Below are positions 3,472-16,877 of a DNA stretch of 21,619 bases, piece after piece. The stretch is from positions 1 through 21,619 of the IMG/VR virus record IMGVR_UViG_3300017962_000146; one strand, written 5' to 3'. How positions within the stretch are numbered: the stretch's first letter is position 1; every line of letters starts with the position of its first letter. Under the pieces are notes generated by a model that saw only the letters and a list, made by a program, of their open reading frames with translations, was not told the DNA's origin and did no database searches. The stretch is from a virus. Both the position numbers and the translations under genes were made by a program.

Positions 3472-3707
3472 CAGTATGAGGACTCCCAACTACTTTCGAT
3501 CCGTTTAACAACTTTCTCTTCTCGTCGTTGCATTTCGAGTTGCTCTTGTTCGCGGGTCATAAAATCCGTTTTCCCGTGTTTTACGATCTGACGAATTGCT
3601 TCATTGAGAACATTGTGCATAGTTAGGTCTCGCTCAATGCAATATCGTTTCAGTTCTTTTTTAAGCTCTGGCTCGATATGAAAATTCATCTGAACGAAAC
3701 CTTTCAT
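3471..3707 (-). CDS. Ribbon-helix-helix (Arc/MetJ-type) DNA-binding protein, 78 aa
   Basis: The N-terminus, QMNFHIEPELKKELKRYC (6-23) then a turn and TMHNVLNEAIRQIVKHG (29-45), has the strand-helix-helix pattern of Arc/MetJ/CopG-type repressors: alternating polar residues on the beta strand, followed by two amphipathic helices. The rest is a highly charged helix (REQEQLEMQRREEKVVKRIE) that may mediate oligomerisation. It probably binds DNA as a dimer to regulate phage or host genes. Its start overlaps the peroxiredoxin stop (TAATG). M7 is an alternative start and would shorten the N-terminus without affecting the fold. Confidence 0.7.
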   Translation of the reverse strand: MKGFVQMNFHIEPELKKELKRYCIERDLTMHNVLNEAIRQIVKHGKTDFMTREQEQLEMQRREEKVVKRIESSWESSY

Positions 3708-4258
3708 TATGCAGCCTCTCTCTTAGGATGTGCGAGACAATATCCCAAAACATTTTCTGGTGATGAAATCTCATAAGGATCTTCGGGATGATTGTCAGAC
3801 ATTGAAGCTTCGGGAAACAATGCTTCTACTACACCATCATCAACTATCATAGCGTAACGCCATGAACGAAACCCAAATCCAAGATTGTCTTTATCTACTA
3901 GCATACCGATCTTCTTTGTGAAGGTGCCACTGCCATCAGGAATAACCTGCACGTTTTGTAGTTGCTGGTCTTTAGCCCAAGCATTCATTACGAACGCATC
4001 ATTAACTGACATACAGTAGATCGCATCGATACCGGTATTAACAAACGCATCAAACTTTTGCTCGTAACCGGGTAGTTGATAGGTTGAACACGTTGGGGTG
4101 AAAGCGCCCGGAAGAGCAAACAGGACTACTCGCTTGCCTTTAAAATAATCTTCCGTGGTCTTATCTTCCCAGCGATAGGGGTTAGGACCCTCAATCGACT
4201 CATCCCGCACACGTGTTCGAAAGTTACATTCTGGTAGTGTATCGCCTTTTCTAATCAT
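3707..4258 (-). CDS. Peroxiredoxin, Prx5-like, 183 aa
   Basis: Thiol peroxidase that reduces hydrogen and organic peroxides in the cytoplasm. The active-site loop is LPGAFTPTCSTYQLPGYE (49-66), with the peroxidatic cysteine at C57 and the conserved P-x-x-x-T-x-x-C pattern. RSWRYAMIVDDG (131-142) supplies the conserved arginine of the Prx5/type II group. A second cysteine, C82 in IYCMSVND, and C173 near the end are candidate resolving residues. The length is full for the family and no glutaredoxin domain is fused. The start ATG lies 7 bases after AAGGA. It is the first gene after a terminator and so probably begins a new unit; I found no convincing promoter for it. The likely role is protecting the infected cell or phage enzymes from oxidative damage. 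Confidence 0.92.
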   Translation of the reverse strand: MIRKGDTLPECNFRTRVRDESIEGPNPYRWEDKTTEDYFKGKRVVLFALPGAFTPTCSTYQLPGYEQKFDAFVNTGIDAIYCMSVNDAFVMNAWAKDQQLQNVQVIPDGSGTFTKKIGMLVDKDNLGFGFRSWRYAMIVDDGVVEALFPEASMSDNHPEDPYEISSPENVLGYCLAHPKREAA

Positions 4259-15811: not shown

Positions 15812-16261
15812 TTAGTGAGATTTGATTTCTATCTTTCTCGGACGCTGTTCTTCGGGCAGTTCAACTCTGAGTTTGATCACGAGTAAACCGTTGACGAATT
15901 CGGCTCCATCAACGACAACGTGGTCAGCGAGTCTAAAAGTTTCCACAAATTTCTTCGTGGTAATCCCTTTGTGAAGATATTGACGATTGTCATATTGACC
16001 ATCTTGAGTGTGATCTGAGGGAGTTCCCTTAATAATCAGCACACCGGGTTTATGTTCAATCTCAATATCTTTCTTTTGATAACCGCCTAGTGCAAATTCC
16101 ATAGCGTATTCTTCATCATTATATTTTACAATATTATGACGAGGAAAACCTTTCTCGTTTGCGCCGATGGCAGTTAGTTTTTCTATCTCATCCCATACGT
16201 GGTCAAAACCAATGAAACGAGAATGTGGGAACGTAAACATTTTAGTACGTGTAGTAACCAT
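15812..16261 (-). CDS. hsp20: Small heat-shock protein, Hsp20/IbpA type, 149 aa
   Basis: ATP-independent chaperone that holds unfolding proteins. The alpha-crystallin domain spans about residues 41-133 (HNIVKYNDEEYAMEFALGGY at its start) and carries the conserved closing motif NGLLVIKL (124-131). A short C-terminal tail has the I-x-I oligomerisation motif IEI (144-146). The N-terminus, with FDHVWDEIEKL, is of the bacterial class A type. Length is normal for the family. The start follows AGGAGG by 5 bases. Hsp20 genes are a regular part of marine T4-like phage genomes. Here the gene has its own strong promoter and a leader that looks like a ROSE RNA thermometer, so heat induction is likely. 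Confidence 0.96.
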   Translation of the reverse strand: MVTTRTKMFTFPHSRFIGFDHVWDEIEKLTAIGANEKGFPRHNIVKYNDEEYAMEFALGGYQKKDIEIEHKPGVLIIKGTPSDHTQDGQYDNRQYLHKGITTKKFVETFRLADHVVVDGAEFVNGLLVIKLRVELPEEQRPRKIEIKSH

Positions 16262-16320
16262 ATTTGCCTCCTAATATTTTAGCAAGGTTGTTGTCTAACT
16301 TCCGGACCATTCCGCGAAGT
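16262..16320 (-). promoter_or_regulatory. ROSE-like RNA thermometer in the hsp20 leader
   Basis: In the minus-strand transcript, CCUUGCU (16287-16281) can pair with the ribosome-binding site AGGAGG (16272-16267): six pairs including one U-G, with a single bulged G opposite. Two A-U pairs extend the stem, leaving a tetraloop. This is the UUGCU/anti-Shine-Dalgarno arrangement with bulged G that defines ROSE elements of bacterial small heat-shock genes. A second hairpin at the 5' end (16320-16298, ACUUC/GAAGU plus CGG/CCG with one bulge) fits the multi-hairpin design. The structure is inferred by hand folding. Confidence 0.65.
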
Positions 16321-16328
16321 CGATATTA

Positions 16329-16357
16329 TATATACACTTTTTGTTTTTAACTGTCAA
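16329..16357 (-). promoter_or_regulatory. Strong sigma70-like promoter for hsp20
   Basis: Minus strand: perfect TTGACA (16357-16352), 17-base A-rich spacer, TATATA (16334-16329). A TATAAT overlaps it but would need a 21-base spacer. The transcription start should fall near 16322, giving a leader of about 60 bases that begins with the first hairpin. No sigma32-type -35 is seen. Confidence 0.7.
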
Positions 16358-16361
16358 GTTT

Positions 16362-16877
16362 TTAGATATATTTTGCCGGATCCGGTTCACCTTCTACGCC
16401 GTACGAATATGTTAATCTAGAAGACGAAGCTATAACTTGATGATGAGTGCCTCTAGGAATCCAGACTGAATGACCGGGACGAAATAATCGAGGTTTGTCT
16501 TCGTAATTAGTTCCTTCAACTTTTAATTTTACGGTGCCTATAGCTTGAACTAACAGAACATCCATACTATCTTTATGGTATGGATAGCTGTCAGATTCTT
16601 GACCGAATCCATAAAATTTTATCAAAGATATGGGGTTTTTTCTAAAAACTTCTGCCATATCTAAAGCAACTTCTTCAGCCCATTTAGGGAGTTTATTTTT
16701 TTCAACCCACAAACAATGTGTGAGATATATTCTAATCTTTTCAGCTTTTGAATTAGAATTACTAACAGGATGTTTATCCAAATAATTTAATTCTTCATCC
16801 CAGTTTGGTATAGGATCTAATTTTGTGCTGCCGAAGTAAGGAACTTTATTTTGAATTTTTTCAAGGTCAAGTTTCAT
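16362..16877 (-). CDS. JmjC/cupin_4-like Fe(II)/2-oxoglutarate oxygenase, 171 aa
   Basis: YPYHKDSMDVLLVQAIGTVK (98-117) fits the cupin_4/JmjC pattern 'H-x-D-x-x-D-V-x-L-x-Q-x-x-G-x-K', giving the metal pair H101/D103. LFRPGHSVWIPRGTHHQV (131-148) supplies the distal histidine (H145 or H146), and R154 in SSRLTYSYG may bind 2-oxoglutarate. Relatives with this core hydroxylate ribosomal proteins (RoxA/ROX) or other macromolecules. At 171 residues, this one has only the catalytic barrel and a helical N-terminus, so substrate choice is unclear. The last bases of regA overlap its ATG. A plain cupin without oxygenase activity is the alternative. The gene is A/T-rich relative to the clamp genes. Confidence 0.65.
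   Translation of the reverse strand: MKLDLEKIQNKVPYFGSTKLDPIPNWDEELNYLDKHPVSNSNSKAEKIRIYLTHCLWVEKNKLPKWAEEVALDMAEVFRKNPISLIKFYGFGQESDSYPYHKDSMDVLLVQAIGTVKLKVEGTNYEDKPRLFRPGHSVWIPRGTHHQVIASSSRLTYSYGVEGEPDPAKYI

Follow-up and report, generated by a model that had tools for sequence, protein, structure and literature searches.

A putative ROSE-type RNA thermometer in the hsp20 leader of T4-like marine phages

Background

To our knowledge, ROSE elements have always been described as tied to bacterial small heat-shock genes. In Pseudomonas putida and P. aeruginosa, the tested ROSE elements of ibpA consist of two hairpins with a U(U/C)GCU core in a 5' untranslated region (UTR) of 61–62 nt, and in this short form hairpin II melts while hairpin I stays closed (PMC3669281). 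Thermometers of cyanobacterial small heat-shock protein genes include that of Synechocystis hsp17 and a ROSE-like element in Anabaena (PMC4166951, PMC4477652). The literature searched yielded three phage thermometers, namely lambda cIII, SPbeta blyA (fourU) and the sigma-70 element of a gut Caudoviricetes phage (fourU); none of them is a ROSE element or acts on a chaperone gene, and for none do those reports describe conservation across a phage family (PMC4166951, PMC11182007).

A ROSE element was found in no phage in the open literature searched, outside which most subscription papers and preprints lie. Under the terms searched, papers on cyanophage small heat-shock proteins hold no mention of leader regulation. 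The novelty of a phage ROSE-like element is provisional.

Results

The hsp20 locus and the fold of its leader

The window (the whole stretch of DNA analysed, 21,619 nt) covers positions 1–21,619 of the virus record IMGVR_UViG_3300017962_000146 (IMG/VR), and its minus strand carries T4-like genes, including those for RegA, a clamp-loader subunit, a UvsX/RecA-like protein and a family-B DNA polymerase. The hsp20 coding sequence, which the leader would control, encodes 149 aa (15812..16261, minus strand; Pfam HSP20 7.7e-13; PHROG 432 Hsp20 3e-31). The preceding gene is cupin/JmjC-like and ends at 16362; the 100-nt gap between the two (16262–16361) is in neither flanking reading frame. A peroxiredoxin-like gene (3707–4258, minus strand; PHROG 2281, 5e-65) is a possible second stress-protection gene of the same phage. 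Since psbA is absent in the 10 related records checked, the hosts of the window clade are probably not cyanobacteria. Genome contigs were also scanned for bacteria from which the phage hsp20 might derive; the one contig obtained belongs to a Flavobacteriales bin and has a different leader.

The original prediction had proposed that CCUUGCU pairs with the AGGAGG ribosome-binding site around one bulged G, and that a second, 5' hairpin lies in the same leader of about 60 bases. Both hairpins are confirmed by folding, as the minimum free energy (MFE) and centroid structures of 16262–16322 (minus strand) consist of exactly these two and nothing else. Hairpin 1 (16298..16320, minus strand; ACUUC-(G)-CGG / CCG-GAAGU) is stable and GC-rich (-10.7 kcal/mol, z -3.1) and covaries in relatives. 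It is followed by the unpaired linker UAGACAACAA (16288..16297, minus strand), which is nearly invariant in the leaders of the window clade. Hairpin 2, CCUUGCUAAAAUAUUAGGAGG (16267..16287, minus strand), pairs CCUU-(G16283 bulged)-CUAA with UUAGGAGG and places a ROSE-type core over the Shine-Dalgarno (SD) sequence; it is predicted by folding and covaries both in close relatives and across phages. The AGGAGG within it (16267..16272, minus strand) lies five bases 5' of the hsp20 ATG (at 16261, minus strand).

The features by which ROSE elements are recognised are present. The leader forms the 5' UTR of a small heat-shock gene (HSP20 family), which the element directly precedes in all relatives that have it whole. 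U(U/C)GCU is imperfectly paired to the SD in the 3'-most hairpin with the G bulged (CUUGCU/AGGAG in the window), and two hairpins in about 60 nt, the 5' one stable, compare with two to four in about 60–100 nt for the class.

The whole leader (16262–16322) folds at -16.0 kcal/mol, compared with -9.2 (sd 2.5) for dinucleotide shuffles (z -2.7). Taken singly, however, the SD hairpin is unexceptional, with 18 of 200 shuffles folding equally well, so the window sequence by itself proves little, and a chance pairing in an AT-rich leader had to be weighed against the comparative evidence.

Covariation in close relatives

Searching IMG/VR for hsp20 yielded 80 loci, and scanning for a pattern made of linker and anti-SD yielded 118 stretches. 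Wherever the element is whole, hsp20 follows it; the remaining pattern matches are without the hairpins. A MAFFT alignment of 20 representative leaders, made with no structure fitting and with two rows misplaced at the SD so that the figures are slightly lowered, keeps 97.8% of pair cells. Changes on both sides occur in 57 cells and in 9 of 16 pairs. The covariation score is 0.581; shuffles score 0.216 and slid partners 0.129 at most. The original prediction was open to refutation by a lack of conservation in related phage leaders; the pairing is conserved.

In the same alignment, all cells (100%) of the 8 pairs of hairpin 1 are paired, with double changes in 6 pairs; this hairpin is rewritten almost freely among close relatives, yet pairing is always kept. 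In hairpin 2 the ROSE core is kept, while C-G and U-A replace each other at the base and A-U and U-A above the core.

Occurrence and SD/anti-SD drift in other phages

The wider set comprised three further hsp20 scans and 22 named phage regions. The pairing is present in 406 of 410 hsp20 reading frames, representing 196 distinct leaders (record Y7, described below, included). When one rule was used for all starts, it was found at 176 of 179 distinct phage hsp20 starts versus 17 of 1261 other starts, the controls being every further start whose reading frame spans 100 aa or more; these counts are not independent events because the leaders are related by descent, whereas the differing SD/anti-SD solutions are independent. 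A first, stricter descriptor had given 125 of 180, an undercount caused by wrong start calls at the first ATG or by an SD lying directly against the ATG, and the looser rule was then used alike for hsp20 and the controls.

The element is present in each of the 21 named phages read, which are mostly cyanophages and pelagiphages: C48C1, Mosig, Melnitz-3, S-WAM2, S-RSM4, HTVC103P, HTVC008M, P-SSM4, S-B68, S-CAM8, S-CREM1, S-TIM61, ACG-2014f, P-RSM6, MED4-213, S-RIM2, S-CAM1, S-H34, RB11-B, AG-345-O18 and, with a shorter core, the Pseudomonas jumbo phage Cassandra. The Cassandra hsp20 leader (L455 613–707, plus strand) has a GAGUGCC...GGGCUC hairpin and AUCUUGC...GGAGAU, and because of this similarity the element is not confined to T4-like marine phages. 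That a ROSE-like leader hides the ribosome-binding site of the phage hsp20, as originally predicted, is strongly supported, and such leaders are far more widespread than could be known from the window.

The strongest single argument for the pairing, from comparison of leaders, is the matched drift of SD and anti-SD. The SD has become GGAC in S-WAM2 and relatives, GGAU in HTVC103P, GGUG in S-TIM61 and GGUAAAA in S-B68, and the opposing arm matches each. The two sides covary as GUC/GAC, CUC/GAG, AUC/GAU, UAC/GUA and CAC/GUG, with the bulged G and CU invariant. Outer pairs within a leader average 3.89, versus 2.88 when partners are swapped between leaders (max 3.02 in 200 trials). The argument against chance is therefore comparative and does not depend on a single-sequence fold: covariation in close relatives and across phages, together with the association with hsp20, rules out a chance pairing, to which we give practically no credence.

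Several other leaders were noted in these records. A more distant phage hsp20 (L091 11734–11789, minus strand) has a variant core CCUGCCUAAUAGGAGG, with CC for CU after the bulged G, and a UGCC/GGGU 5' hairpin. In two related phage records (L468 432–488, minus strand; L466 243–299, plus strand) the leader of another short gene combines a strong 5' hairpin with an AACUUU...AAAGGAGUU pairing over the SD; it has no ROSE core and is a second SD-hiding leader in those phages. Near hsp20 of cyanophage S-CREM1 (L211 327–383, minus strand) lies a glutamine-riboswitch-like sequence (33.5 bits; cut-off 35), annotated in the record as a glnA riboswitch. The GenBank record "Pseudomonas phage Y7" (UNVERIFIED; L205 910–976) has a canonical ROSE_3 before hsp20 (69.2 bits). 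This record is probably host DNA rather than phage and was left out of all counts except the 406 of 410.

Rfam and covariance models

In the Rfam search that had been proposed as a check, ROSE_3 (RF02523) ranked as the best family for the window, but at 18.1 bits (E 0.11) it is sub-threshold. GP20-a (15.2 bits, E 2.7), which came next below the threshold, was taken as chance. The ROSE_3 model also picks up Melnitz-3 at 34.1 bits (E 0.0022), the best score among genuine phage leaders. The gathering cut-off of 43 bits is reached by none of the genuine phage leaders scanned (the window, 20 relatives and other phages) and is passed by Y7 alone; the phage leader is therefore not a member of RF02523 as curated.

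Two covariance models were built, R1 from the close clade and R2 seeded from R1 matches. In the window, the hsp20 leader is the sole R1 site (86.8 bits; next best 6.7), and R1 reaches C48C1 (E 8e-5) and pelagiphage-type leaders (E ~1e-4). On whole phage records, the hsp20 leader is the best R2 match in 12 of 12, with secondary matches at E 0.02 or above. Two leaders that had no part in building R2 are also found by it at the right place: the Y7 ROSE_3, of the Pseudomonas type, at 23.1 bits (E 0.02), and the E. coli ibpB leader, a marginal match, at 17.2 bits (E 0.65). The R2 seed holds a few false positives inside the hsp20 coding sequence (L393, L412, L416), and R2 scores of that group were not used.

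Promoter region

The claim that hsp20 stands behind a strong TTGACA promoter is just partly right. A -35-like TTGACA (16352..16357, minus strand) is present, and 17 nt from it lies the -10-like box TATATATA (16327..16334, minus strand), one mismatch from the T4 late box TATAAATA. The -10 is TATATA at this spacing, and a TATAAT would sit 21 nt from TTGACA. The pair is at most a candidate strong promoter, and it is not in the output of a consensus promoter scanner. The box common to relatives is the T4-late-like one rather than TTGACA: TATAAATA with at most one mismatch occurs in 135 of 187 relatives (background 7%), and TTGAC at the right spacing in 49 of 187. Judged by these motifs, hsp20 may be expressed with the timing of either a TTGACA-type or a T4-late-like box. 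The proposal that no host heat-shock sigma factor would be needed fits the sequence.

Proposed mechanism and alternative functions

The pairing over the SD is strongly supported by the sequence comparisons; we infer that it represses translation, and likeness of form suggests heat as the signal that would open hairpin 2. Hairpin 1 would act as a stable 5' clamp, and hairpin 2 would hide the ribosome-binding site of hsp20 with an imperfect pairing that the bulged G and a G-U pair weaken. Translation would be held down at normal temperature; when the cell warms, hairpin 2 would open and chaperone would be made from mRNA already present. We consider the leader likely to be a ROSE-like RNA thermometer of this kind, in the short two-hairpin form.

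The predicted probability that the window SD is unpaired rises from 0.28 at 20 °C to 0.40 at 42 °C (nearest-neighbour folding), gradually and without sharp melting, and the same method shows no opening for the verified ibpA thermometer, so that folding at different temperatures cannot decide on heat sensing. In partition-function folding, the SD at 20 °C is unpaired with a median of 0.19 in phage hsp20 leaders versus 0.49 in other phage genes, with a slow rise with temperature. The calculated stability of local SD hairpins has a median dG37 of -1.8 kcal/mol in phages (nominal Tm ~51 °C) and is -3.4 kcal/mol in the window (58 °C); those of E. coli and the Y7 ROSE_3 (-4.0 to -5.1 kcal/mol, 62–69 °C) are stronger than the phage median. 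By these calculations, weaker phage hairpins would fit cooler hosts.

The slow predicted shift in SD exposure would also suit hairpins that simply fix a low translation rate and protect the 5' end of the mRNA, with nothing sensed, and mRNA can gain stability from a 5' hairpin that is itself stable (discussed in PMC3669281). Such a leader, however, would not call for a bulged G and CU that stay invariant while the SD arm opposite them covaries, or for a ROSE core restricted to hsp20, and we regard a fixed rate as quite improbable.

A ligand other than temperature is conceivable as well. RegA of T4 acts at ribosome-binding sites, and in the window its gene lies two genes upstream of hsp20, so the leader might be a binding site of this phage translational repressor. 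But the element is not limited to phages that encode RegA: HTVC103P and S-TIM61 carry it without PF01818, which excludes RegA as a necessary ligand and makes a RegA site very unlikely.

IbpA of E. coli, Cedecea and Vibrio represses its own ROSE-type leaders via Arg93 (PMC10474464), and the phage leader could likewise be mainly an operator for phage Hsp20, which would bind and repress it until aggregated proteins draw Hsp20 off (an IbpA-type aggregation sensor). The signal would then be the protein stress of infection, not heat. Most phages outside the window clade have the equivalent Arg, and it is almost universal among the readable Hsp20s of pelagiphages and cyanophages (51 of 51, 56 of 56 and 55 of 56). 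In the window clade, however, 48 of 49 readable proteins have Lys at IbpA position 93, and the positions of IbpA Arg97 and Lys98 hold Glu or Lys, and Thr; R93K makes IbpA repression-dead (PMC10474464), yet the RNA element is still fully conserved in this clade. Judged from these residues, chaperone autoregulation is a serious possibility in most relatives and disfavoured in the window clade, and heat and self-repression could act together outside it. As the main role of the leader, self-repression appears unlikely.

The linker UAGACAACAA is almost invariant in the window clade while both flanking stems vary. This is beyond what a simple melting hairpin explains and counts against the thermometer reading; the linker is possibly a ribosome standby site or a protein site, and the latter would suit an Hsp20 operator.

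Discussion

On balance, it is probable that a ROSE-type thermometer is a standard part of hsp20 in T4-like marine phages (cyanophages, pelagiphages, Methylophilales phages and the window clade), and that temperature acts directly at the ribosome to set chaperone supply in infection, with transcription from a phage promoter and no part played by host heat-shock control. If this is true, viruses would have their first known ROSE element, and no other phage thermometer would be as widespread. Abundant ocean phages would themselves sense how warm the infected cell is, a point of relevance to infection as the sea warms, and phage hsp20 would gain a directly testable condition of use. The phage leaders also form a large natural alignment of the ROSE core, in which the bulged G and CU are fixed and the rest of the helix, including the SD, is rewritten.

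Comparison with known thermometers

The lambda cIII, blyA and sigma-70 elements share with the phage leader a temperature-dependent control of translation on a phage genome. However, cIII closes on warming, and the blyA and sigma-70 elements are of the fourU type and belong to other genes. The cyanobacterial thermometers are, like the phage element, leaders of small heat-shock genes, and one Anabaena element has ROSE-like sequence; Synechocystis hsp17, in contrast, has one short hairpin without the ROSE core, whereas cyanophages have the two-hairpin ROSE-type leader.

E. coli ibpA (RF01832, ROSE_2) and Bradyrhizobium ROSE1 have the same kind of SD-hiding core (UUCUCGCUGAUUUCAGGAG in ibpA, UCUCGCUUAAAGAUAAGGAG in phages), but they are bacterial, with three to four hairpins and other 5' hairpins.

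The Pseudomonas ibpA ROSE (ROSE_3) also has two hairpins in a UTR of about 60 nt before a small heat-shock gene, with U(U/C)GCU opposite the SD and a bulged G, and (G)AUGCC...GGGU of the ROSE_3 consensus is found in hairpin 1 of most phages. The phage element differs in that it is carried by phages, scores below the Rfam cut-off, has much more varied SD arms, follows T4-late-like or TTGACA-type boxes rather than sigma-32 ones and, in the window clade, has GCGG...CCG in hairpin 1. By this analogy, the phage leader looks related to the short Pseudomonas ROSE element in layout and in proposed action.
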